Shown here one piece after another: positions 3,101 to 15,986 of a DNA stretch of 64,000 nucleotides. A program made the position numbers and the translations under genes. The DNA is from Capsulimonas corticalis (GTDB lineage: Bacteria; Armatimonadota; Armatimonadia; Armatimonadales; Capsulimonadaceae). The stretch lies in assembly GCF_003574315.2 (NCBI RefSeq), contig NZ_AP025739.1:3658001-3722000 (forward strand). Direction: 5' to 3'. Every line of letters starts with the position of its first letter. Positions within the stretch are counted from its first letter, which is position 1. The notes below the pieces were generated by a model. That model was not told the origin of the DNA. It was given only the letters and a program-made list of their open reading frames with translations, and made no database searches.

Positions 3101-4369
3101 ATGTACAAGAAATCCGCGCGCCTCTTGTCTATAGCTACGCCATTGGTAAGCCTTTTTGTTGGGAGCAGCCTTCTTGCAATGGAGCGGACAGCCTCGGCGT
3201 ATACCATCACCGACCTTGGTATAACTCAGGGGGCAGATATTCAACCTAGTGGGGCGAGTTTCAAGGCGATTACTATAAATGATCGCGGGAATATCGCGAC
3301 TTGGACGGACAATGCTGGACAATACCAAGGTTATCTGACTGCAACAGGTACATGGCTATATCCGAGAACCGGAAACCTTTTTTCGGTCCCTTTGACGCTG
3401 GATAATTCTGCTTCTTCTAACGTGGTAGGTTTGAGTCGCATCAATAACTCCTCGTCAATTGAGTACCAAGCCGTCGAGTGGATCGCCGGAAGTTCAACGC
3501 CTACGGTGCTGAATATTTCGAATTTTGTTGGCGCTCCAGACACATCAGCTTATCCTTTCGGAATTAACACACTCGGAGAAATCGCTGGAGAGTCTTACGG
3601 TGTCTCGGGTGGCATGGGACTTACACCTGGCCGTGGTTTTATCTATTCAGGAGGAACAACAATCTTTCTTCCTGCCCCGGCAAATGGCAATGGGAGTCGC
3701 GCTTGCGCTATCAATTCTTATGGTCAACTAGTAGGGGCATACTATACAGAAGGTCCGTTCTCTACTAATCCACTTCATCCTGAAGCTCAACAAGGTGTCG
3801 TGTGGACACCCAGCGTTACAGGCGGAACGTCATTAAGTTACATCCTTCTTGGAAGTGGCTTAGCAATGGGCCGCAATCACCCGGCTCCCGGTGATCCTAC
3901 CTGCGCCTATGCAATCAATCGCGATGGATTAACAGTGGGTTACGGCTTTACGATGCATCATGCTTTTTTGTGGTGTCCGACAACGGTAAATGGATCGACT
4001 TCCGGCGCCACACCGGAAACGTTGTATGACCTTGGCGTTTTAACGACCACGACTGGAGAGTGGTCGGATGCGTACTCCATTAGCAGTCCGACGCTAGTTG
4101 GTGGAGTTGGAACGGCTACAATTGTAGGTAAAGATAGTAATTCAACCGCTAAAGCTGTCAAGTGGACTGTGACGTATACTGTAAACCCCACGACGCATGC
4201 GATCACGTTAGGCACGATCACAGGTCCAACTGACCTCAATACGACTGGGACGTATACCGGTTGGGTGCTCCAGTCAGCGACCAGCGTGAATTCGAGCAAC
4301 GCCATCGTTGGTTACGGAACCTATACGTCTGCGGGAACGACCAACACCAAAGCCTTCCGCCTGCAATAA
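3101..4369 (+). CDS. Exported HAF-repeat protein
   Basis: A 422-aa protein with a signal peptide (basic KKSAR, hydrophobic core, cleavage near Ala-Ser-Ala at about residue 33). The mature part holds repeating blades with AINxxGxxVG-like and HAFLW...DLGxL signatures, for example YAINRDGLTVGYGF, HAFLW and LYDLGVL near residues 270-310. This is the pattern of the HAF family of probable extracellular repeats, likely a beta-propeller-like fold. Function of the family is not established. A close paralogue follows 35 bases downstream, so this is a tandem duplication under one promoter. Confidence 0.8.
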   Translation: MYKKSARLLSIATPLVSLFVGSSLLAMERTASAYTITDLGITQGADIQPSGASFKAITINDRGNIATWTDNAGQYQGYLTATGTWLYPRTGNLFSVPLTLDNSASSNVVGLSRINNSSSIEYQAVEWIAGSSTPTVLNISNFVGAPDTSAYPFGINTLGEIAGESYGVSGGMGLTPGRGFIYSGGTTIFLPAPANGNGSRACAINSYGQLVGAYYTEGPFSTNPLHPEAQQGVVWTPSVTGGTSLSYILLGSGLAMGRNHPAPGDPTCAYAINRDGLTVGYGFTMHHAFLWCPTTVNGSTSGATPETLYDLGVLTTTTGEWSDAYSISSPTLVGGVGTATIVGKDSNSTAKAVKWTVTYTVNPTTHAITLGTITGPTDLNTTGTYTGWVLQSATSVNSSNAIVGYGTYTSAGTTNTKAFRLQ

Positions 4370-4404
4370 AAATTGTCGGGATTTCACTCAATGAAGGGGT
4401 CTTG

Positions 4405-5724
4405 ATGAAAACACGTAAACCGTCCGCACATCGCCTGTCGCACGTCGCTTCTTCCCTATCATGTCTCGCAGTCGGAACTGGCGCCTTGCTGGGAATTGGA
4501 AATCCCCTTTTCGCTTATAGCATCACCGATTTAGGGATAACACAGGCCGACGATATTAAAGCTGGAGGTCCAACCACTAATTGGAAGGCGATTACTATCA
4601 ATGATAGCAGTAAAATTGCAACTTGGACGCCCAATGGTACGCAATACCAGGGCTTTCTGACGGCGACGAATACGTGGCTTCAGCCATTTTCTGGGGATCG
4701 CATGTCAATTCCGATGAACATGGACGGAGCTGTGTCGCCAACTGTGGTAGGAGACAGTCTGCTGCCCAGCGGTATTTATAGTGTATGGCAACCGGTGAAG
4801 TGGGTTGCCGGTAGCTCAACTCCAACTCTATTGACTGTTGCGAATACGAGCGGCTCTGGAGCAACGTCTGCTCTTCCCTTTGGGATCAATTCTCTTGGCG
4901 AAGTTGTTGGAGAATCTTATGTCGGCGCGATTACCTCGTTGGTCAAGGCTGGAAGCGCCTTTCTCTATTCGAGCGGAACGACATCGTTTCTCCCCGTTCC
5001 GAAGGCGGGGCAGGGCAGCCGTGCTTGCAGCATCAATGCTTATGGACAAATTGCAGGAGCATATTACACCGAAGGGCAGCACCAGATTGACATTTATCAT
5101 CCGATAACTCAACAAGGCGTAGTTTGGACGCCTAGTGTTGCGGGCGGAACCACGTTCAGCGTTACCTACCTTGGTAGTGGTATTGGCGACAGCCAGCAGG
5201 CGCCAAATCCAAATGTGGACCCGACCGCCGCCTATGCGATCAATCGTGATGGGCTAGTTGTTGGATATAGCTTCAATACGCACCATGCCTTTCTATGGGC
5301 GCCAACAATATTAGACGGTACGACTTCCGGCGTGATTCCCGAAAACCTGCATGACCTGGGCGTTTTGCCGACAAGCAGCGGAGATACTTCGGATGCATAC
5401 GCTATCAGCAATCCCACACTCGTCAGTGGAACCGGAATAGCGACGATTGTGGGAAAGGAGACGACTACGAGTGGCTCAACGGTGACATACAAGGCCGTGA
5501 AATGGACGGTCACATATAACGTGAACCCTACCACTCATTCCATTACGCTCGGCTCAATCTCAGGGCCAATCGACCTCAATACTACCGGCCCTGGTACAGG
5601 AGGCGCTTATACAGGCTGGACGCTTCAGTCGGCGACTAGTGTGGACTTAGGTGACCGGATCGTAGGATATGGAACCTATAATTCAGGCACAACGGTTACG
5701 ACCAAAGCGTTCTTGCTGAACTAA
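4405..5724 (+). CDS. Exported HAF-repeat protein, tandem paralogue
   Basis: A 439-aa protein. The start is the ATG with GAAGGGG about seven bases upstream; an upstream extension of the frame overlaps the previous gene and is rejected. A signal peptide ends near Phe-Ala-Tyr (about residue 37), and the mature protein starts YSITDLGITQADDI, matching YTITDLGITQGADI of the preceding gene. The same blades recur (GINSLGEVVGESY, YAINRDGLVVGYSF, HAFLW, LHDLGVL). The two proteins align along their whole length with small indels. Function unknown. A strong terminator follows. Confidence 0.8.
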   Translation: MKTRKPSAHRLSHVASSLSCLAVGTGALLGIGNPLFAYSITDLGITQADDIKAGGPTTNWKAITINDSSKIATWTPNGTQYQGFLTATNTWLQPFSGDRMSIPMNMDGAVSPTVVGDSLLPSGIYSVWQPVKWVAGSSTPTLLTVANTSGSGATSALPFGINSLGEVVGESYVGAITSLVKAGSAFLYSSGTTSFLPVPKAGQGSRACSINAYGQIAGAYYTEGQHQIDIYHPITQQGVVWTPSVAGGTTFSVTYLGSGIGDSQQAPNPNVDPTAAYAINRDGLVVGYSFNTHHAFLWAPTILDGTTSGVIPENLHDLGVLPTSSGDTSDAYAISNPTLVSGTGIATIVGKETTTSGSTVTYKAVKWTVTYNVNPTTHSITLGSISGPIDLNTTGPGTGGAYTGWTLQSATSVDLGDRIVGYGTYNSGTTVTTKAFLLN

Positions 5725-5747
5725 CTCGTTTTTAAGGATAATCCTTC

Positions 5748-5783
5748 AAAAAAGCCGTCCGGCACACTGCCGGGCGGCTTTTT
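5748..5783 (+). terminator. Intrinsic terminator after the HAF pair
   Basis: An A-run, then AAGCCG-T-CCGGCA, the loop CAC and TGCCGG-G-CGGCTT, ends in a T run at 5779-5783. It may also act on the converging reductase gene. Confidence 0.85.
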
Positions 5784-5796
5784 ATGGGAGATGGTG

Positions 5797-6654
5797 CTAT
5801 CCGCGCAGCGCCTCCTCCATCGTCACACTTCCTACGATATGCTCCGCGCCGTCGCCTTCAAAAGTGATCCATCCCGAATTGAACCCGTCGAGCATTTCGA
5901 TCCTCGGCGCGGTCTTGTCGGGGGCGGTGCCTTGTGCTTCGAAGTTTGCGGCCCATTGTTCACGCGGGACTTCGACGGCTTGGACGGGACGGCCCACGAG
6001 TGCGGCGAGGGCGGCGGCGATGTTGGTGGGCGCGTAGGGGCGGGGGCCTTCGAGTTCGAGGATTCGGCGGCCGGTCCAGGTTTGCGGGAGCGTGGCGGCG
6101 ATGGTTTGGCCGATGTCGGCGGTGGCGACCATGGGAATGGCGCGGTCGAGTGGGTGAAGGTAGCTGGAGAATATCCCAGAGCTGCGGGCAGGTTCGATAT
6201 CCCAGGCGGTGTTTTCCAGGAACCATGCGGCGCGAATGTGGGCCTGTGAGATGGGGAGTTCGCCGAGTATCTCTTCCAGGAGATGGGACTGAGTGATCAG
6301 GCCCAGTCCCGTGGAGCGGTGCGCGCCGACGGAGGAGAGGGTGACGATTTTGGGCGTGCCCGCCGCCGCGAGAGCTTCGCGGAGGGCGGTGAGGATGGCG
6401 CGCGCTTCGGGGAAGCCTGGCGCCGGCGCGAAGTACGGCGGGATCATGAGGAATGCGCCTTCGACGCCGTGGAGAGCGATGGTCATCGCGTCGATATCCC
6501 GTGCGTCCGCTACGGCGATCTCCGCCCCAAGGTCCGCCCATTCCTGCGCCTTCGCGGGATCGCGCACAACCGCCCGGATGGATTGCCCGTCCGACAGCAA
6601 AGCGCGCGCCGCCGCTCCGCCGACTCGTCCCGTAATTCCCGTGATTGCGTACAT
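5797..6654 (-). CDS. NmrA-like NAD(P)-binding reductase
   Basis: A 285-aa atypical short-chain dehydrogenase. The N-terminal nucleotide-binding loop is GITGRVG (Gly6, Gly9, Gly12), followed by AVVRDPAKA after beta-2, which suggests NADP(H) binding through Arg. It lacks a clear Tyr-x3-Lys pair, as NmrA-type and NAD(P)H:quinone-oxidoreductase-2-like proteins do. Substrate unknown; a redox sensor or quinone reductase is possible. It lies 122 bases downstream of the TetR gene on the same strand and is probably under its control. Confidence 0.82.
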   Translation of the reverse strand: MYAITGITGRVGGAAARALLSDGQSIRAVVRDPAKAQEWADLGAEIAVADARDIDAMTIALHGVEGAFLMIPPYFAPAPGFPEARAILTALREALAAAGTPKIVTLSSVGAHRSTGLGLITQSHLLEEILGELPISQAHIRAAWFLENTAWDIEPARSSGIFSSYLHPLDRAIPMVATADIGQTIAATLPQTWTGRRILELEGPRPYAPTNIAAALAALVGRPVQAVEVPREQWAANFEAQGTAPDKTAPRIEMLDGFNSGWITFEGDGAEHIVGSVTMEEALRG

Positions 6655-6776: not shown

Positions 6777-7379
6777 TTACTTCAGCGGGGGTATAGGTCT
6801 CACGCTCAGACCGCTGAGAATCAGCGACCAGACGGCGTCGAACGCTTTGGCGATCTCGGGATCGGACCAGTCGGCGGCGTGCGCGGGGTTGTGGAAGCGT
6901 ATGGTGGCGTCGAACACGGCGCGGGCGGCGGTGGCGGGGTCCGGGGTGGTGAACTCGCCGCGCTGGACGCCGTCGGCGATGATCCGGGCGAGCTGGCCGA
7001 CCATGTCCGAGACGTGCGCCGTCACGACGGTTCGCGCTTCGGCGGCCAGCGCGAGGTAGGTCGCGAACAGCTCCGGATCATCCTGAGCCCGCGAGCGCTT
7101 GGAGTGCATCAGAGTTTCGAGCCAGCGGCGCAGGCGGTCGGCGGCGGGGGCATCCTCGGCGACGATCTCGGTGAGCGCCGGATTGATGCGGCACAGCCAG
7201 CGCTCGGCGACGGTGTCGCGCAAAGCCGCCTTGCTCGGGAAGTGACGGTAGACGCTGCCGTGGCTGACGCCGAGGGCGCGGGCGACGTCGACGACGGTTG
7301 CTTTCGCCGGGCCGTAGCGGCGCAGGACATCTTCGGCGGTTTCCAGGATCAATTCCGGGGTCAAAGGCGTATCGCTCAT
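6777..7379 (-). CDS. TetR family transcriptional regulator
   Basis: A 200-aa protein. An N-terminal TetR helix-turn-helix lies at about residues 8-55 (VVDVARALGVSHGSVYRHFPSKAAL), followed by an all-helical ligand-binding and dimer domain. The start is the ATG with AAGGAG upstream; a longer frame to 7520 would overlap the promoter and operator and is rejected. Typical members repress their own gene and neighbours until a ligand binds. The nearest targets are this gene and the NmrA-like reductase downstream. A palindrome overlapping its promoter (7504-7533) is the likely operator. Confidence 0.9.
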   Translation of the reverse strand: MSDTPLTPELILETAEDVLRRYGPAKATVVDVARALGVSHGSVYRHFPSKAALRDTVAERWLCRINPALTEIVAEDAPAADRLRRWLETLMHSKRSRAQDDPELFATYLALAAEARTVVTAHVSDMVGQLARIIADGVQRGEFTTPDPATAARAVFDATIRFHNPAHAADWSDPEIAKAFDAVWSLILSGLSVRPIPPLK

Positions 7380-7490
7380 GATATTTCTCCTTGACGGCGC
7401 TCGCTGTCGAGATGCGCCATCTTCGTGGCGGGGCACGGTCGCCGGTGTCCAGCAGGCTGTCCTGGTCCCCAGTAAGGCAGTGATGAATCT

Positions 7491-7533
7491 ATAATACTTT
7501 AGAATAATGACAAAAGTCAATATCTGTCATTAT
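7491..7533 (-). promoter_or_regulatory. TetR promoter with overlapping palindromic operator
   Basis: On the minus strand, TTGACT (complement of 7515-7520) and TATTAT (complement of 7491-7496) have an 18-base spacer. A perfect 9-bp inverted repeat, ATAATGACA (7504-7512) and TGTCATTAT (7525-7533), covers the -35 box. That position is typical for self-repression. Confidence 0.65.
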
Positions 7534-7621
7534 AATATTTTCTAACATAAAGACACCGATGGAACTTTTTTGGCCGCCGCTCCGTTAAGAGACGAAGAAA
7601 CTACGGTAGAATATCCTTGTC

Positions 7622-8149
7622 ATGAGACGACGCGCGCACAGCATTCTTTGGCTTCTGGTGGTACTGGCGATTGCCCTGCAATCCGTCGCGCCTCGCCTTG
7701 CGTTCGCCCAGGTCAGCGTGCGATGCGCGGGCGCGACCGCCGCGTCCAAACCATGCATGCAGGCGGTTTTGCCGATTACCTCGGATACGCCCGCGCAAAT
7801 GAAGTGCGCGAACATGGCGTGCTGTCGCAATCGAGCGTCTCTCCTGCGCGCCTGCCGCATGGGTATGTCCATGCCGCCCGCGCACCTCGCGGGCCGGTCT
7901 CTGCATACGGTCGCCGCGCCGTCCACGTGCCTGATTTCGATCAAACGCCTCAGCGCCGCCGCGCCCGCCGCGCGGAACATGCGCCGCTGGCTGCTGGACG
8001 CCTCTCCCGCCGCCGCGCCGCCCACCCCGTCCGCATCGTCCATCACTTGCCCCGTTGTCGCGCGTAACCTTCCCTTACCCAGTTCCGTTTCGCTTTCCAC
8101 ACGCTATTTCCACCTGTCGCACGGCCTTCGTGCGCCTCCCGTCGCCTAA
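7622..8149 (+). CDS. Cys-rich exported protein of the efflux locus
   Basis: A 175-aa protein with a signal peptide (MRRRAHS, hydrophobic core, cleavage near Phe-Ala-Gln at about residue 30). The mature N-terminal half is rich in Cys, Met and His: Cys at about 35, 45, 62, 67, 68 and 77, with the cluster KCANMACC and a MGMSMPP stretch. The C-terminal half is Ala/Pro/Ser-rich and basic. The Cys/Met content and its place at the head of a probable metal-efflux locus suggest thiol/thioether metal binding, but no named family was recognised. A TAGAAT box ends nine bases before the ATG and no ribosome site is evident. Confidence 0.6.
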   Translation: MRRRAHSILWLLVVLAIALQSVAPRLAFAQVSVRCAGATAASKPCMQAVLPITSDTPAQMKCANMACCRNRASLLRACRMGMSMPPAHLAGRSLHTVAAPSTCLISIKRLSAAAPAARNMRRWLLDASPAAAPPTPSASSITCPVVARNLPLPSSVSLSTRYFHLSHGLRAPPVA

Positions 8150-8315
8150 CCCATCTCTCGCCACGCCACGTTTTTAGCCATTCGAGCGCCTGCGCACGTT
8201 TGGCGCATATCCCGATTTCCAGGGCTAACCGATTACCGTTTGGCCCGTCGGAAAGACCGGCCATTGGCCGTCCCATCACTCGACGCTTCGCGCGTCACTC
8301 AAGGAGAACCTCGAC

Positions 8316-8570
8316 ATGAAGAAGACAATCGCTCTCATCGCGCTCGCCATCGGCGTCCTGCCCATGGCCACACACGCCGCCACGCCCAAGCCTAAGGCCA
8401 AATCGACGACGTACGAGTGTCAGAAATGCCACATGCAGTACAGCGCGGCGGCCGCGAAGAAGGATCACTACAAAGACCCGATGGACGGCGGCAAGCTCGT
8501 TCCCGTCTCCCTGACGAAGAAGGCCCCGGCCGCCGCCAGCAAGGCTTCCATGAGCCACATGAAGATGTAA
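8316..8570 (+). CDS. Small secreted CxxCHM-domain protein
   Basis: An 84-aa protein: signal peptide to about Ala-22, then one compact domain at residues 32-64 with Cys35-x2-Cys38-His39-Met40, Tyr-Ser, Lys, His-Tyr, and the signature DPMDGGKLVPV, and a Met/His tail (MSHMKM). The same domain occurs twice in the RND adaptor encoded next. It loosely recalls the YHS and heavy-metal-binding-domain short Cys motifs, and a copper- or other soft-metal-binding periplasmic role is inferred. AAGGAG lies eight bases before the ATG. A weak AAGCC/GGCTT hairpin with a T run directly follows the stop. Confidence 0.8.
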   Translation: MKKTIALIALAIGVLPMATHAATPKPKAKSTTYECQKCHMQYSAAAAKKDHYKDPMDGGKLVPVSLTKKAPAAASKASMSHMKM

Positions 8571-8609
8571 GCCTTTGGGCTTTTCCAATGTCGCCCTCGG
8601 GCGGCAAGG

Positions 8610-8674
8610 CGCTGGGAACGCAAGCTCAGCGCCCTCCTGGCCTCGGCGGTTCTTACGGATGAGAACCGCCGAGG
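8610..8674. repeat. Two consecutive hairpins in the gap before the adaptor gene
   Basis: GCGCTG...CAGCGC (about 8610-8633) is followed by a perfect 13-bp inverted repeat CCTCGGCGGTTCT (8641-8653) and AGAACCGCCGAGG (8662-8674) with an 8-base loop. They could attenuate or stabilise the mRNA between the highly expressed small protein and the pump. Confidence 0.6.
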
Positions 8675-8717
8675 GTGGCTCGATTTGACGCCGTCTCCAT
8701 CGGAAACGGCTTTGGGA

Positions 8718-10535
8718 ATGGATATTGTGATGCGCGGACCCTGGAAAAATCTGCTGAGCGCTCTCGCTCTTGTCCTCATTTTTGTCGTGACTCTTGCCGC
8801 CGTGGGGCGTTACCATAAGCCGGGACAACTCGACGTGATCTCCGCGCAGGCGATGGACATGAGCGCCATGCGCCCGCCCGCCGGCGCGGCGCCCGTGTCG
8901 CTCGTCGCGGTGCGGCGGGGCTCACTGGGAGAGACCGTCACGTACACCGGATCCGTGCTGCCGTTCAACGAACAGGATATCTCGCCGCGCATCACCGGGA
9001 CGCTGGTGGCGCTGCCGGTCTATCCGGGAGACCAGGTGCGGGCGGGACAGTTGGTGGCGGAGCTCGACAGCGCCGAGGTCAGCGCCAAAACGCAGCAGGC
9101 GGTTCAGGCGGCGCGCGGCGCGAGCATCAACGCCCGGGTGGCGCATCTCACGCACCATCTGCACCACCGCGCCGCCGTCGCGCAGGCAGCGGCCCAGTTC
9201 TCGGCGGCGGCCCAGGGAGTGGCGGACGCTCAGGCCGAGGCGCAAGCCAGCGGCGACGCGATCGCCGACGCGGAGGCGGGAGTGCAGAGCGCGCAGGCCG
9301 GCGCGGATTACTGGAAGACCGAGATTGCGCGTGAGAAGCAGCTCGCCGACGCCGGCGCGGCCTCGCGTCAGGAGTATCAGAGCGAGCTCGCGCAGGCGCA
9401 GACGGCGTTTTCCGCCTTAAGCCAGGCGCGCGCCAAGGTGAGCCAGGCGAAGGCGATGGCGCAGGCGGCGCAGGCGAAAGTCTCGGTGGCGAAGCGCCAG
9501 GTGGACGCCGCCCAGGCTTCCCAGGATATGGCGCAGGCCGATCTGGTGGTCGCCGAGGCGCAGGCCCAGCAGGCGCAGGCGGGCGCCGCCGAGACGCAGG
9601 CGGCGGTCCGCGAAGCCGCCGTCATCCAGGGCTATACGCGGATCACCGCGCCACTCAGCGGCGTGGTCACCGAGCGCCCGGCGGCGCCGGGGACTCTGGC
9701 GCAGCCGGGTATGGTGATTCTGAAGATCGCGGAGATCGACCGGGTGCGCGTGCAGGCGAATGTCGCCGCGTCCGATCTTTCCGGAATTCGCCCGGGCGCC
9801 TCCGTCGAGATTGCGGCCCAGGACGGCGGCGACTCCATTGCCGCGAAAATCACCTCGGTCTTCCCGTCCGCGAACATGAACACGCGGACGGCGGTGATCG
9901 AGGCCGTGGTTCCCAATCCCGGCCATCGCTTGCAGCCAGGCGCGTTTGTGACGATGCGCATCGACAAGCAAAGGGGGGGCATTGGGGGCGCGGAACTGAT
10001 GGTTCCGGCGTCCGCCATTGTTTCGCAAGGCGGTCAGTCTTATGTTTGGATCGCGAAAGGCGCGGGCGGGCCGGCGAAAACAGAGTACGAGTGCGCGATC
10101 TGCCATATGCGTTACTCGGCGGAGCAGGCGGCGAAGAACCATTATCGGGACCCGATGGACGGCGGTAAGCTCACGCCGGTGAAATCCGCCGACACGCCGG
10201 CGGCCGGCGGCGCGAGCGCGCACAAGGTCATCGTTCAAATCGGCGCCTCGGACGGAACTTCATCGGAAGTCACCTCGGACGAACTCACGGCGACCGATCA
10301 GGTGATCGCCCAGGGCATGGCGGGACTGACGGAAGGCGCGCGGATTGTCGTGACGGAGTGGGGGACGAACGGCCCGAAGTCGCTGCCCGACGCCGCCTCC
10401 GCCAACGCGGGATTGACGGTGTATCGCTGCGACAAATGCGGCATGACCTACTCCGAGGCGGACGCCAAAAAGAACAACTTCATCGATCCCATGGACGGCG
10501 GACATCTCACGCCCGTGAAAGGCTCCGCCCAATGA
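8718..10535 (+). CDS. RND efflux adaptor (HlyD/MFP type) with two CxxC(H/G)M domains
   Basis: A 605-aa periplasmic adaptor linking the inner-membrane pump to the outer-membrane channel. One N-terminal membrane helix lies at about residues 10-30; then a split biotinyl/lipoyl domain (PGDQVRAGQLVAELD ... YTRITAPLSGVVTERPAAPG) surrounds a very long Ala/Gln-rich coiled-coil hairpin (about 120-310). Beta-barrel and membrane-proximal domains follow. Extra CxxCHM domains are inserted at about 455-490 (Cys459, Cys462, His463) and appended at about 567-600 (Cys571, Cys574, Gly575). The start is ambiguous: an in-frame TTG at 8685 also exists. The stop overlaps the pump start (ATGA). Confidence 0.88.
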   Translation: MDIVMRGPWKNLLSALALVLIFVVTLAAVGRYHKPGQLDVISAQAMDMSAMRPPAGAAPVSLVAVRRGSLGETVTYTGSVLPFNEQDISPRITGTLVALPVYPGDQVRAGQLVAELDSAEVSAKTQQAVQAARGASINARVAHLTHHLHHRAAVAQAAAQFSAAAQGVADAQAEAQASGDAIADAEAGVQSAQAGADYWKTEIAREKQLADAGAASRQEYQSELAQAQTAFSALSQARAKVSQAKAMAQAAQAKVSVAKRQVDAAQASQDMAQADLVVAEAQAQQAQAGAAETQAAVREAAVIQGYTRITAPLSGVVTERPAAPGTLAQPGMVILKIAEIDRVRVQANVAASDLSGIRPGASVEIAAQDGGDSIAAKITSVFPSANMNTRTAVIEAVVPNPGHRLQPGAFVTMRIDKQRGGIGGAELMVPASAIVSQGGQSYVWIAKGAGGPAKTEYECAICHMRYSAEQAAKNHYRDPMDGGKLTPVKSADTPAAGGASAHKVIVQIGASDGTSSEVTSDELTATDQVIAQGMAGLTEGARIVVTEWGTNGPKSLPDAASANAGLTVYRCDKCGMTYSEADAKKNNFIDPMDGGHLTPVKGSAQ

Positions 10536-13500
10536 GACTGCGAACCAATAGACAGGACGCGCCCTCCGAAGCAGGCGCCAATCGCGGCTTTAATATCTCG
10601 GCCTGGAGTATCCAGCATCCCTGGGTGGTGATCAGCTTCTATGTCGCCGTCGTCATCCTGGCGCTGGCGGCGATCTTCGGCGGCGTGATGCCGCGCCGCA
10701 TGATGCCGTATGTCGAAAGCCCGATGGTCGGGATCGTCACGATGATGCCCGGCCTGTCGGCGCAGGAGATGGAGACTTATATCTCCAAGCCGATTGAAGA
10801 GCGGATGACCGATATTCGCGGCGCACGCTATATCCGCTCCACCTCTCAGGACGGTCTTTCGATCGTTTCGCTGGAGTTTCCCTATGGGACGAATATGCAG
10901 AAGGCCGTGACCGATGTGCAGTCGCTGATGAACGCGGTCCAAGCGGACTTGCCGCAGACGGGGGCGAACCTCAAGCCGTCGTGGGTGCTGCCGATCGATC
11001 CTCTGAACATCCCGATCCTCTCCGTGAGCGTTACGGGCGACGCGGACAAGGGGTGGACGCCGATGGCGCTGCGCCAGTTCGCCGAGAACGACGGCGTGCG
11101 GGCGATCAAACAAGTGGGAGACGTGCAGTCGGTGGAAGTGTACGGCGGCCAGAAGCGTCAGCTTCGCGTCGAAATCAATCGGGATAAACTCGCCGCCTAT
11201 GGCTTCTCCATCATGGACGTGCGCGACGCCATTGACAAGAACAGCGTGGCGAAACCGGCGGGCGTGATCACGGCGGGGCCAAACGAGAGCATCATCCGCA
11301 TGGCGGACCTCGCCCAGAGCGCGGCCGCCGTGGCGGGGTATCCGCTGGGTTCGAAGAACGGGCAGGTGGTCTATCTGCGGGATGTCGCGAGCGTGAAGGA
11401 CGATCTTCGGGAGCAGCGCAGCGGATATCACTTTGTGGACGGCAAGCGCCAAACCATCGAGGGCGTGAACAACGATTCCGTCGAAATGGCGGTCATCCAG
11501 AATCCGGCGTCGGGCTCGCCGCCCGTGGTCGACGCGGTGCGGAAACAGCTTGACCAGCTCGTTCAGGATCATCCGGGTCTGCATTTTCGGGTGGCGTACG
11601 ACAACTCGCATTTCGTCAATATTCTCTTCAAGAACACCATCGAGGAGCTGACCGTCGCCATTCTGCTTTGCGGCCTCGCAGTGCTGTTCTTCATCGGCAA
11701 CCCGCGCGGAACGTTGATCTCGGTCATTACGATTCCCGTGAGCATGGCGATGGCGATCCTGCTCATGGTCCCGTTCGGTTTCTCGCTCAACTCGTCCACG
11801 CTGATCGGGCTTCTGATCTCAATCGGCCGCCTGGTGGACGACTCCGTGATCGATATCCACGCCGTGGAGCGGCATTTGCGCCTCGGCAAAGACCCCGCAG
11901 CGGCGACAGTGGACGGCATTACCGAAGTGCGCCTCGCGGTCGCGGCGTCCACGATCATGCTGGTGCTCGCCCTGCTGCCCCTGGTCTTTTGCGGCGGCAT
12001 CACGCAGCTGATGTTCGTCGGTCTGGTGTACCCGATCATCTTTGGACTGATCGCGTCGTTTCTGGTGTCGCTGACCTTGACGGCGCTGCTCGCGTCTCGC
12101 CTGCTGACTGCGGACGGCGCCGGGGAGAAGCGCGGCTGGCTTCATGAGCGTCTGCTTGCTCCGAGCCAGCGATGGCTGGAGCGCGGGGACGCTCGCTATG
12201 AACGGTTCGTGCGCCTGCTGCTGCGCAACAAGTTCGTGGTGATCGCGGCGGCGCTCTGCACGATCGTCGTGGGCTTCGGCTTTTACAACTTCATCGGCTC
12301 GGAGATGATGCCGCTCGCCGATGTCGGTCAAGCCTACGGCGTGCTGGAGATGGAGCCGGGCGCGAGCTACGCGCGGACACAGGCGGCGACGGCGGCCCTG
12401 GAAAAGATCATCCTGAAGCATCCGGAGATCCAAAAGGTCTCCACGGAGATCGGCGAGGAGCCGGGCGGAACGTACTTCACCGGTTACGCGATGAACCAGA
12501 TCAACACCGCCACGATGATGATCACGCTGTCCGACAAAGACGAACGCGCGCGTACGGTCTGGCAGGTGATCGACGACATTCAGAAGGAGGCGCTGCGCGC
12601 CATCCCCAACATCCGCCGTCTCCAGATTAAGGAGATGGGCAGCGATGTCATGGCCTCCTCGGAAGCGCCCGTCACGGTTCTGGTCTCGGGACAGGATCTG
12701 AATGTGCTCTCGAAGCTGGCGGGGCAGGTCGCCGAGATTGCGCGCCGGACGCCCGGCGCGTCCCAGGTCTCAACGTCGTGGGCGGTGGAAAAGCCGTCGT
12801 ATACGCTGAATGTGGACGCGCGGCTGGCGGCTGAGATCGGCCTCACGCCCGCCGATGTCGCGGATCAGGCGTATTACGCCATGGGCGGCGCGCTGGCCGA
12901 TGAGTTTTACCGGCTGCCCAACGTCCGTCAAGACACGATCAATATTCGATACCAGGGGGATCAGAGACGCTCCGTGTACGATCTGCTGCAAATGCCGATC
13001 ACGGGCAAGGACGGCGTGCAGGTTCCCCTGAAGACTCTGGCGACCGCCTCGCCGCAGCTTGCGCCGACGATCATCGAGCACGACGGCCTGCGCCGCACCG
13101 TTTCGGTGCTGGCCTACTACCGCAAGGGCGGGCCACCGTCCATGGATCTGGCGATGGCGATCATCGGCAAGGCGTCGGCGCGGCTCAACTTTCCGCCGGG
13201 CTACTCCATGGAGATGCGCGGAGACATGACGCAGATGATGGACAGCTTCGCGCGCCTCCTGCGCGGCCTGGAGATCGCCGTTCTGCTGATCTTCCTCGTG
13301 CTCGTCGCGCAGTTCGGCGGGCTGCTCTCGCCGCTCCAAATGGTGCTGTCGATTCCCCTGGAGCTGTCCGGCGTTTTTATCGGCCTCTGGCTGGCGCACC
13401 AGGCGTTCTCCAGCGTCTCGATCATGGCGATCATCGTGCTCACGGGCATGGACATCACCACGGCGATTTTGATGATCGATCAGATCATGCGTCGCCGGCG

Positions 13501-13807
13501 GGACCATCCCGACATGCCGCGTGACGCCGCCATCGCCCTGGCGAGCCGCGACCGTCTCCGGCCGATCCTGATGACTTCGCTGATCACGATCGTCACCATG
13601 ATCCCCGTAGCGCTCACGCCGCGCACGGGCATGGACGCCTACCAGCCGCTCGGCACGGTGATTGTGGCGGGCCTGACCGTGGGGACGCTGCTGTCGCTTC
13701 TCGTCATTCCAGTCATGCATGCGCTCGTCGACGATTTGAACGTTTGGGCAGGCCGCCGGGGAAAATCGCCGGCGCTCAGCGCCGTGGACGAACGCCGGGC
13801 GATTTAG
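10532..13807 (+). CDS. Efflux RND transporter permease
   Basis: A 1091-aa inner-membrane proton-driven pump of the AcrB/CusA superfamily. TM1 (about 28-48) precedes a large periplasmic porter domain opening with PGLSAQEMETYISKPIEE; the central helices include the twin acidic pair in RLVDDSVIDIHAVERHL (TM4), and the second half repeats the plan with a large loop and a helix cluster near the end. The ATG overlaps the adaptor stop, so the two are translationally coupled. The Cys/Met-rich partners suggest a heavy-metal substrate, but the pump lacks an obvious diagnostic motif for metal, so multidrug export remains possible. GC-rich like its neighbours. Confidence 0.92.
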   Translation: MRLRTNRQDAPSEAGANRGFNISAWSIQHPWVVISFYVAVVILALAAIFGGVMPRRMMPYVESPMVGIVTMMPGLSAQEMETYISKPIEERMTDIRGARYIRSTSQDGLSIVSLEFPYGTNMQKAVTDVQSLMNAVQADLPQTGANLKPSWVLPIDPLNIPILSVSVTGDADKGWTPMALRQFAENDGVRAIKQVGDVQSVEVYGGQKRQLRVEINRDKLAAYGFSIMDVRDAIDKNSVAKPAGVITAGPNESIIRMADLAQSAAAVAGYPLGSKNGQVVYLRDVASVKDDLREQRSGYHFVDGKRQTIEGVNNDSVEMAVIQNPASGSPPVVDAVRKQLDQLVQDHPGLHFRVAYDNSHFVNILFKNTIEELTVAILLCGLAVLFFIGNPRGTLISVITIPVSMAMAILLMVPFGFSLNSSTLIGLLISIGRLVDDSVIDIHAVERHLRLGKDPAAATVDGITEVRLAVAASTIMLVLALLPLVFCGGITQLMFVGLVYPIIFGLIASFLVSLTLTALLASRLLTADGAGEKRGWLHERLLAPSQRWLERGDARYERFVRLLLRNKFVVIAAALCTIVVGFGFYNFIGSEMMPLADVGQAYGVLEMEPGASYARTQAATAALEKIILKHPEIQKVSTEIGEEPGGTYFTGYAMNQINTATMMITLSDKDERARTVWQVIDDIQKEALRAIPNIRRLQIKEMGSDVMASSEAPVTVLVSGQDLNVLSKLAGQVAEIARRTPGASQVSTSWAVEKPSYTLNVDARLAAEIGLTPADVADQAYYAMGGALADEFYRLPNVRQDTINIRYQGDQRRSVYDLLQMPITGKDGVQVPLKTLATASPQLAPTIIEHDGLRRTVSVLAYYRKGGPPSMDLAMAIIGKASARLNFPPGYSMEMRGDMTQMMDSFARLLRGLEIAVLLIFLVLVAQFGGLLSPLQMVLSIPLELSGVFIGLWLAHQAFSSVSIMAIIVLTGMDITTAILMIDQIMRRRRDHPDMPRDAAIALASRDRLRPILMTSLITIVTMIPVALTPRTGMDAYQPLGTVIVAGLTVGTLLSLLVIPVMHALVDDLNVWAGRRGKSPALSAVDERRAI

Positions 13808-13836
13808 GACACAGGTCCAGTCGGACACAAGTCCAG
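13807..13836. repeat. Short tandem repeat before the TolC-like gene
   Basis: Two near-identical units, GGACACAGGTCCAGTC (13807-13822) and GGACACAAGTCCAG (13823-13836), fill the gap between pump and channel genes, just before the ribosome site. Role unknown. Confidence 0.6.
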
Positions 13837-13847
13837 AAGGAGTTTCC

Positions 13848-15209
13848 GTGAAGATCCCAAAGATGGCGCCGTGGACCGTGCTGGCGTCCATGGCGTTCGC
13901 AGGCGTCCCAGGCGTCCGCGCCGAGAATGAACCGCCGGTCGTCCATGCGGCGAATATGACCCTTGCCGACGCCCTGGCGCTTGCGATGCAGCACAGCGTC
14001 ACGCTCAAACAAGCGCAGGCCGATGTCAGCGCCGCAGCGGCCGCCGCGCGCGGCGCGGCGGCCCCAACAAAGCCGAGCCTCTCCGCGACGACATACGCCA
14101 CGGCCGGCGACTCGTCCAATATTCTGAACACCTCTCCCGGCGTCGCCCCGGTGAATATCTTCAGCGCGCCCGCGCGCGGCTTCGTGGACCAGAACCTGAC
14201 GTTGATGTTCCCGTTGTCCAGCGGAGGGAAGCTGCGCGGCGTCGCCGGCGGCGCGCGCCGACAAAGCGACGCCGCAATTCTGACGGCGCAGGCGGATCAA
14301 ATCACGGTGAAAGAAATCGTTACGGAGCGATACGCCGACGCCCTGCTGCAGCGCGATCTGGTGAGCGTCGCGCAGTCCCGCTTAACCGCCGAAGACGAGC
14401 AAGTCCGCGTCACGTCGGAAAATGTCCAAACCGGCAAATCGGCGCCCGTGGATCTTCTGCGGGAACAGGCGGAGCAAGCCGACGCCGGCCAGCAGCTTCT
14501 GTCGGCCCGGAACCAGGAGGCGCTGGCGCTGGTCAGCCTCAAGACCGCCCTGGGCGTCTCCCAGGAATCGGACCTCACCCTGACGGATACGCTGGACACG
14601 CTTTCGCCGCCGGCGTCTCTTCCCGGAAGTCTCCATGATGCGCTGGCGCAGGCGGAGAAGAGCCGTCCCGAAGTGGCGGCGGCGCAGCGCCAGATAGAGG
14701 CGGCGCAATCGGCGCTGGGCGCGGCCCATGGCGCCTATGCGCCGCAAGTTTACGGTGTGGCGATGGCGGACGCCATGGCGGGGCAGGGGACAGGGCGCAC
14801 GGGATACACCATCGGCCTCACCGCCAGCCTGCCCCTTCTTGACGGCGGTCAGCGCCGCGCCGACACGGATGCCGCGAAAGCCAAATTGGATCGCGCCGCC
14901 GCCGATGCGCTCCAGGTCCGGCAAACCGTGGATCAGGACGCGGCGTCCGCATGGCTGGCTTACCAAACCGCCATGGCCCAGCTCCAGGCCGCGCGAGTGG
15001 GCGAGACGGCGGCCGTCGAAGCCGATAAGCTTGCGGACCTGCGCTACCACGCTGGAAAATCCGTGCTTGCGGAGCGCCTGGACGCCGCCTCGGCGATGAG
15101 CCGCGCCCTCGGCGCGCGCGCCCGCGCCGAAGCCGATGTGGTCGTCTCCCGCGCGCGTTTGCTGGCGGCGGTCGGCGCGCTGGCAATAAGCGAAGATCGT
15201 TCCAGGTAG
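13848..15209 (+). CDS. TolC-family outer-membrane efflux protein
   Basis: A 453-aa protein. The start is GTG with AAGGAG eight bases before it. The signal peptide ends near Val-Arg-Ala-Glu (about residue 26). Two outer-membrane-efflux repeats are visible: MTLADALALAMQHSVTLKQAQADVSAA (about 37-65) and the second half from about 265 (LHDALAQAEKSRPEVAAAQRQIEAAQ), each with long Ala/Gln-rich helices, and LLDGGQRRADTDAAKAKLDRA as the typical post-strand turn. It should form the trimeric channel for the adaptor and pump just upstream, completing a tripartite exporter in one operon. Confidence 0.92.
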   Translation: MKIPKMAPWTVLASMAFAGVPGVRAENEPPVVHAANMTLADALALAMQHSVTLKQAQADVSAAAAAARGAAAPTKPSLSATTYATAGDSSNILNTSPGVAPVNIFSAPARGFVDQNLTLMFPLSSGGKLRGVAGGARRQSDAAILTAQADQITVKEIVTERYADALLQRDLVSVAQSRLTAEDEQVRVTSENVQTGKSAPVDLLREQAEQADAGQQLLSARNQEALALVSLKTALGVSQESDLTLTDTLDTLSPPASLPGSLHDALAQAEKSRPEVAAAQRQIEAAQSALGAAHGAYAPQVYGVAMADAMAGQGTGRTGYTIGLTASLPLLDGGQRRADTDAAKAKLDRAAADALQVRQTVDQDAASAWLAYQTAMAQLQAARVGETAAVEADKLADLRYHAGKSVLAERLDAASAMSRALGARARAEADVVVSRARLLAAVGALAISEDRSR

Positions 15210-15218
15210 AATGACGTC

Positions 15219-15986
15219 ATGCTGGAAGAAAACTATCCGATTCTGGAATTTGACCCGACGCCCATTGCCGTCATTGAGCCGAAGCGAATCTACGCTACAC
15301 GGGACGTTCCCGAGCACGCTGTTGTCTGCTTTTTTCAAGAGGTGATCGCCACGCTGCGCGACGAACACGGCGCCGTGGTCCTGCATACGCTGGGCAGTGA
15401 GATCGGGCCGCATCCCGTTTATGAGATTGAGTTTCAGGGGCGGCGACTGGCCGTGTTCCATCCCGGCGTCGGCGCGCCGCTGGCGGCGGCGCTGCTGGAC
15501 GAAGTGATCGCGATGGGGTGCGTCAAGTTCATCGCCTGCGGCGGCTGCGGCGTTCTGGATAGCGCGATCGCCATGGGGCATGTGCTCGTCCCGCACGCCG
15601 CCGTGCGCGACGAAGGGACGTCGTATCACTACTTGCCGCCCAGCCGCGAAGTGTCGGCAAGCCCGGCGGCAGTGGCGGCCATCGAGCAAACGCTTCGCGC
15701 GCATGGAACGGATTACCTTGCCGCCAAGACATGGACAACCGACGCGATCTACCGCGAGACCCCCGCCAGGGTCAAGCGCCGCCGGGACGAGGGATGCGTC
15801 AGCGTGGAGATGGAGGCGGCGGCCTTCTTCGCCGTCGCCCAGTTTCGGGGCGTGGAGTTTGGGCAGCTTCTCTATGGCGGGGACGATGTCGGCGGCGAGG
15901 TCTGGGACAACCGTGGCTGGCAAAACCACGGAACGGCGCGCGAAAAACTGTTCTGGCTGGCGGCGGAAGCGTGTCTGTCGCTGTAA
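15219..15986 (+). CDS. Nucleoside phosphorylase
   Basis: A 255-aa protein of the PNP/UDP phosphorylase family, which cleaves nucleosides with phosphate to base and ribose-1-phosphate. Visible motifs are a phosphate-binding region with HPGVGAPLAAALLDE, GCVKFIACGGCGVLD (strand and Gly-rich turn), VLVPHAAVRDEGTSYHYLPPS, and VEMEAAAFFAVAQFRG, in which the Glu before Met-Glu-Ala is the usual ribose-binding position. Closest in look to uridine-phosphorylase-like proteins; the base specificity cannot be read from sequence. No ribosome site is evident, and a TAGAAT box lies six bases before the ATG, so translation may be leaderless. Confidence 0.85.
   Translation: MLEENYPILEFDPTPIAVIEPKRIYATRDVPEHAVVCFFQEVIATLRDEHGAVVLHTLGSEIGPHPVYEIEFQGRRLAVFHPGVGAPLAAALLDEVIAMGCVKFIACGGCGVLDSAIAMGHVLVPHAAVRDEGTSYHYLPPSREVSASPAAVAAIEQTLRAHGTDYLAAKTWTTDAIYRETPARVKRRRDEGCVSVEMEAAAFFAVAQFRGVEFGQLLYGGDDVGGEVWDNRGWQNHGTAREKLFWLAAEACLSL

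Follow-up and report, generated by a model that had tools for sequence, protein, structure and literature searches.

The soil bacterium Capsulimonas corticalis encodes a short, Cys- and Met-containing module both in a small secreted protein and in the periplasmic adaptor of a neighbouring RND pump, which raises the question of what this module is and what it does in the two settings. The locus lies in the window, that is, the whole 64,000-nucleotide stretch of DNA analysed here, to which the coordinates of the Capsulimonas corticalis genes refer. The pattern Y-x-C-x2-C-[HG]-M-x-Y-S ... [HN][YF]-x-D-P-M-D-G-G-x-L-x-P-V, which an initial annotation had reported once in an 84-aa protein and twice in the adaptor, was read directly from the sequence at all three places and defines a module of 32 amino acids. 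In the small protein it occupies 8412..8507 (plus strand), corresponding to residues 33-64 (Y33-V64) with the candidate ligands C35, C38, D54 and D57. The first adaptor copy (10086..10181, plus strand; residues 468-499 counted from TTG; candidate ligands C470, C473, D489 and D492) is inserted in the membrane-proximal domain, between the strands 437-443 (..YVWIAK) and 497-502 (HKVIVQ) of the adaptor model, while the second (10422..10517, plus strand; residues 580-611 from TTG; C582, C585, D601 and D604) lies at the extreme C-terminus, both as originally described. Since the adaptor may start at TTG 8685, ATG 8718 or ATG 8730, the residue numbers given earlier (455-490 and 567-600) differ slightly from those used here, being close to the numbering from ATG 8730 (453-484 and 565-596).

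Each copy consists of two knuckles, C-x2-C-[HG]-M and D-P-M-D-G-G, which together form a candidate Cys2Asp2 site with Met, and often also His, beside the putative ligands. The three copies share 55-57% identity over 40 amino acids, with 17 of the 40 columns invariant. The repetition exceeds what chance would produce, because the small protein of another Capsulimonas sp. (L055) matches both adaptor copies of the window (E 3e-11 and 5e-10). A profile search of the bacterium's own 7.65-Mb genome returned these three copies and no others.

The genes carrying the module are part of a putative pump operon on the plus strand. A TetR-family regulator (6777..7520, minus strand; Pfam TetR_N and TetR_C_27) is encoded divergently from it, and promoter-like sites on both strands cluster at 7486-7540 between the two (5 in 7450-8800 against 0.4 expected). 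The first operon gene (7622..8149, plus strand) codes for a 175-aa secreted or anchored Cys-rich protein that ends in HGLRAPP and has no Pfam match. It is followed, on the same strand, by the genes for the 84-aa candidate carrier (8316..8570), which has a signal peptide and a Met-rich tail (SHMKM, with MGGMKM or MPGMKM tails in its homologs), the adaptor (8685..10535; 616 aa from TTG, 601 aa from ATG 8730), the RND permease (10532..13807; ACR_tran 1.5e-201; 23% identical to CusA), the start of which overlaps the adaptor stop codon (ATGA), and a TolC-family outer membrane factor (13848..15209; OEP 3.3e-44). The adaptor matches TIGR01730 (2.3e-46; 158 bits against a cut-off of 94.9) and Pfam HlyD_D23 (1.1e-26), and its model shows an N-terminal helix and a hairpin; the family profile and the lipoyl/barrel/hairpin layout thus both identify it as an RND_mfp adaptor. 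An Rfam search of 7500-15300 revealed no RNA.

Two related loci (L055 and L059) have the genes in the same order, from Cys-rich protein through small protein and adaptor to permease, with TolC next in L055, and a third (L056) lacks only the small gene. Homologs of the Cys-rich protein are encoded upstream of the small gene or the adaptor in L055, L056, L058 and L059, and similar Cys-rich genes with a C-terminal RAPP precede the HMBD-type pumps discussed below in L112 and L122. These proteins make up a secreted Cys-rich family with a conserved CC and a C-terminal HGLRAPP (RAPP in L112 and L122), found upstream of pumps, of which L120 also has a member and which has no Pfam match. A further observation concerns the permease and a TolC-like factor, which are encoded by a single ORF in two MAGs of one genus (L065 1484-6013 and L079 333-4874; 1510 and 1514 aa) and also in L056 (1510 aa), the joint being a signal-peptide-like stretch, KKAIVVVLGLGLLGTGLSAARAD. 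Such a single chain would be unusual and may be cleaved at the internal signal. Elsewhere in the window, 3101-4369 and 4261-5724 encode adjacent, similar secreted proteins, a tandem duplication that is apparently unrelated to the pump.

As for the family to which the module belongs, scans of Pfam and NCBIfam, as proposed in the initial annotation, gave no match to a described domain above threshold; the sub-threshold matches (ESCO-type zinc finger, DUF7128/7129 and ExtJ, 0.079) were taken as generic CxxC matches, and a phmmer search of the small protein against the PDB gave nothing convincing. The structure prediction suggested at the same time was more informative: in the AF2 model of the small protein the module is folded as strand-strand-helix-strand (E-E-H-E) with a pLDDT of about 89, and both adaptor copies have the same layout in a full adaptor model that is itself poor (pLDDT 53). 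The best Foldseek matches are the zinc ribbons of PolD, EndoQ and Sir2 (sirtuins), with a probability of about 1.0 and, for the closest of them, an rmsd of about 1 A over 32-34 columns; given the very small size of the domain, the E values do not fall below 0.07. With VIA-align, TFIIE and the zinc-binding lid of Bacillus adenylate kinase were matched as well, the Z scores staying below 4.

A typical zinc ribbon has four Cys/His ligands, whereas the window copies present Cys2Asp2. Four-Cys relatives do exist, however, and a comparison of the window module with its Armatimonadota relatives at the profile level gave a probability of 97.8% (E 6.7e-12). In view of this link, the module is best read as a zinc ribbon, and the models and alignments suggest that D-x2-D has taken the place of the second C-x2-C in knuckle 2. 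The lid of B. subtilis adenylate kinase, which reads C150-D-K-D153-G-G-E-L, offers a parallel: its Asp153 is a zinc ligand, so that an Asp ligand in a D-G-G-x-L knuckle has a precedent. The two share C-x2-C in the first half (C-x2-C ... C-D-K-D-G-G in the lid), an Asp as the last ligand and the same turn, but the lid belongs to a cytoplasmic enzyme and is Cys3Asp, and it is cited as a parallel, not as a homolog.

The distant Armatimonadota relatives of the module are secreted proteins, several of them rich in Met or His; their second knuckle is C-P-H-C (L072, in tandem), C-D-C-C (L023), C-P-M-G-H (L071) or D-P-M-G-H (L067-L070). By profile the four-Cys and DPMGH proteins (L072, L023, L068, L070 and L071) contain the same module and are likewise secreted; they differ in knuckle 2, which is C-P-x-C or D-P-M-G-H, and in being stand-alone, none having been seen in an adaptor. 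The position of D54 is taken by His in copy 1 of the L085 adaptor and by Cys in L023, L035 and L072, and that of D57 by Cys in L023 and L072. That the candidate ligand positions thus swap among types of metal-binding residues supports a metal-binding module. The L072 protein (6922-7422, genome G074), a secreted protein with two four-Cys zinc ribbons and a His/Met-rich linker between them, is perhaps the unmodified form.

Clear copies of the module were found in six of the seven Capsulimonadaceae genomes searched (G000-G003, G005 and G006), each having a module-bearing adaptor together with a free secreted protein. The adaptor of G003 has a single copy, and that of G005 has both in tandem in the membrane-proximal site. 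In three of these six genomes (G002, G005 and G006) the free gene and the adaptor gene are on different contigs. The seventh genome, G004, lacks a module-bearing adaptor and a close free protein; it encodes a remote free relative of the DPMGH type, and an LptB-like ABC ATPase to which a copy is fused. This ATPase (L009 729-1614) carries the module at its C-terminus in the form CEECGEMYSPEQAAEAGFRHDQDGGRLIPV, a cytoplasmic variant whose knuckle 2 contains His and Asp. Among the relatives searched in the phylum outside Capsulimonadaceae, the module in its window form occurs almost nowhere, and a scan of genome contigs returned family members and two Clostridia loci only, the latter with matches of 13 residues that were judged to be due to chance; an alignment of the more diverse copies contained no stretch of sufficient conservation for such a scan. 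In tblastn searches against plasmids, neither the small protein nor a four-Cys relative gave a match.

A clue to what the module may do in the adaptor is what stands in its place elsewhere. In other Armatimonadota families, the adaptors (core identity to the window adaptor about 37-43%) have classical heavy-metal-binding domains (HMBDs, PF19335) at these two sites: one lies in the membrane-proximal domain, between '..VWV' and 'AHRVxVxLG', the other at the extreme C-terminus (L087, L090, L091 and L093-L098). PF19335 was found in all five orthologous adaptors scanned, in two copies in four of them (48-88 bits). The permeases that go with the HMBD adaptors share 55-60% identity with that of the window, and these systems are accordingly treated as orthologous pumps. 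In L101 two HMBDs stand in tandem at the membrane-proximal site, as do the two window-type modules of G005. A tree of adaptor cores, weakly supported in its backbone, unites the window-type adaptors in a single clade (100/100) that is flanked on both sides by HMBD adaptors. On the simplest reading, HMBD would be ancestral and would have given way to another module, or diverged past recognition, in a single family. The membrane-proximal insertion lies next to the contact region between adaptor and permease. The C-terminal slot looks, from the sequences, like a hot spot for metal modules. By eye, the related adaptors of L103, L108 and L109 end in a cupredoxin-type domain, and not in HMBD or the window module.

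HMBD resembles the module in its length of about 30 residues, its richness in Cys, Met and Pro, its start (Y-x-C) and its end (L-x-P), and it also occurs in the copper P-type ATPase of 3rfu/8ovl. The spacing differs, being C-x2-H-x10-C-x2-C in HMBD versus C-x2-C-x15-D-x2-D in the module, and the order of the half-motifs looks swapped. At the sequence level the module does not qualify as an HMBD: PF19335 had no match in the bacterium's own genome at E 0.001 and none in P0001 and P0002 at E 10. The collinear profile comparison was unconvincing, with a probability of 11% globally and 75% locally, the latter over 14 columns that cover the CxKCGM knuckle only. The L072 protein does match HMBD (3e-6), but over the Met-rich linker plus a single knuckle, and homology was not concluded from this. 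No HMBD is among the structural matches, although their lists, filled by zinc ribbons, are uninformative about HMBD likeness.

The swapped order invites a more specific explanation, namely that a membrane-proximal tandem such as that of L101 lost its outer halves, leaving [C-x-K-C-G-M] + [Y-x-D-P-M-D], and that this circularly permuted HMBD, with Cys changed to Asp, then spread to the C-terminus and to the free carrier. An alignment in swapped order, in which the second half of one HMBD is followed by the first half of the next, scored 32 against at most 17 in 100 column shuffles, and a doubled profile in this order reached probabilities of up to 92-94%, mainly at a spacer of 13 and with sensitivity to the spacer length. 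Such an origin is considered rather improbable; if true, pump and carrier would share one new module with a changed metal preference. A loss of Cys has a parallel in E. coli CusB, residues 48-71 of which match the HMBD profile (E 0.004) and show that replacement of Cys by Asp, Ser or Met is possible.

The arrangement itself, which had been thought new, is therefore not: orthologous adaptors hold HMBD at the same two sites, and CusF, which exists both as a free protein and as the CusF-like C-terminal domain of SilB, is a published precedent for a single metal-carrier module used free as well as in fusion with an RND adaptor (PMC4446572). CusF, however, is a beta-barrel, whereas the window module is zinc-ribbon-like and stands twice in the adaptor, once inside the membrane-proximal domain. 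Other parts of the initial annotation, namely a metal-ligand-like module hosted by an RND adaptor and a single module both free and fused, are supported, and the module itself is new: it is absent from Pfam, occupies the slots of HMBD and probably belongs to a secreted zinc-ribbon family, with Asp in place of Cys in knuckle 2. Cases of this kind suggest that pairing of the adaptor's accessory module with a free counterpart in the periplasm may be a general pattern. On a Stanieria plasmid (L124), the adaptor (4086-5924), which belongs to the same pump lineage as the window adaptor, carries a FixH-like segment at its C-terminus, and the gene that follows (5960-6394) encodes a free FixH of similar sequence, as judged by eye.

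Taken together, the locus is read, with a probability of about 60%, as a tripartite heavy-metal RND efflux operon, most likely for Cu(I)/Ag(I), in which an Asp-substituted zinc ribbon occupies the HMBD slots and is also made as a free periplasmic carrier. The metal-efflux context is backed by the orthologous pumps and by neighbouring genes. The closest permease relatives found outside the phylum are cyanobacterial plasmid pumps (Stanieria, Brasilonema, Nostoc, Leptolyngbya), 45-47% identical over the full length, and four of the five cyanobacterial loci opened have metal-responsive MerR-type regulators, a heavy-metal P-type ATPase or DUF411 alongside; at the fifth, that of Tolypothrix, no such metal gene was found beside the pump. 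The two adaptors read from this group (Stanieria and Brasilonema) have a FixH/YtkA-like C-terminal part and lack the membrane-proximal insertion. A copper RND system, Synechocystis CopBAC, has been studied experimentally (PMC4335983), but its plasmid is absent among the close permease matches and orthology is not claimed. In L057/L078 the free protein is encoded amid a multicopper oxidase, a YtkA/FixH protein, a YHS protein and a HAD-type ATPase fragment, and in several operons of the HMBD type a gene for a secreted YHS protein lies upstream. The window locus itself adjoins no copper gene, and its neighbouring regulator is of the TetR type, not CusR or MerR. The window adaptor (MDMSAM) and its close relatives have a QAMDMSxM motif near the N-terminus, in the region that holds the Met ligands of CusB. 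The pump probably exports copper or silver.

The permease resembles HAE pumps, which fits a different view, in which the pump is a multidrug (HAE-type) exporter, the modules serve a side function or as a stress sensor and the metal theme is an inherited decoration. The multidrug models of NCBIfam do outscore the CusA/CzcA model (576 against 348 bits), the closest solved structure is MdtB and the neighbouring regulator is a TetR; but none of the permease models reaches its cut-off (701 bits in the case of the heavy-metal model TIGR00914), the orthologs carry HMBD, and heavy-metal regulators or ATPases stand beside the relatives. Moreover, among 16 aligned permeases 17 of 47 Met are invariant, and three of these lie 3, 1 and 1 columns from M573, M623 and M672 of CusA (P 0.0004 for random triplets, 0.005 within PC1-PC2). 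This evidence is suggestive only, since those exact columns are not Met and the conservation of Met (0.36) is hardly above that of residues overall (0.31). An exporter of drugs is nevertheless regarded as improbable.

The main rival to metal efflux through the modules is a purely structural zinc site: the module would be a zinc ribbon for docking, with Zn(II) holding the fold, and the free protein an assembly or regulatory factor that hands over no metal. The closest Foldseek folds are structural zinc ribbons, Cys2Asp2 suits Zn(II), and the knuckle resembles the structural Zn site of Bacillus adenylate kinase. This role, which does not account well for HMBD in the same slots of orthologs, for free proteins with Met-rich tails or for the copper-type genes that neighbour the free protein in relatives, is held to be unlikely. 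Much the same weight is given to the export of Zn(II), Co(II), Cd(II) or another divalent metal in place of Cu(I)/Ag(I), for which Asp ligands, favouring harder ions, would be suited. The adaptor ZneB binds Zn(II) (PMC4446572), and in G002 and G006 a DtxR-type regulator and an Nramp-like transporter were noticed by eye near the adaptor, beyond a citrate synthase gene; the Met-rich tails, the MDMSAM motif, the invariant Mets of the permease and the copper-type neighbours in L057/L078 point the other way. The metal is the weakest step of the preferred reading, because Cys2Asp2 would suit Zn(II) too: such a site is less suited to Cu(I) than one of Cys, Met and His, and the metal may instead be Zn(II), Cu(II) or another borderline one.

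If the locus is indeed an efflux operon for Cu(I)/Ag(I), its parts would be the Cys-rich protein, the free carrier, the adaptor, the permease and TolC, and we infer that the metal is bound by the C2D2 site together with Met. The free protein would bind excess metal in the periplasm and pass it by ligand exchange to the like module on the adaptor, the C-terminal tail receiving it before the membrane-proximal copy; a hand-off from the small protein to the pump had already been proposed in the initial annotation. The latter would load the metal into the periplasmic cleft of the permease, and proton-driven cycling would expel it through TolC.

The layout of the system is known, and its new part is the module taken up at both HMBD slots, a probable Asp-substituted zinc ribbon. 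RND adaptors seem able to exchange their accessory metal modules, among which are HMBD, cupredoxin-like, FixH-like, CusF-like and Asp-substituted zinc-ribbon forms, and several of these systems also produce their module as a free protein in the periplasm. This raises a testable question, namely whether carrier and adaptor need matching modules for metal transfer. The 32-residue modules of Capsulimonas can be synthesised and swapped, and the change from Cys to Asp should shift their metal preference.
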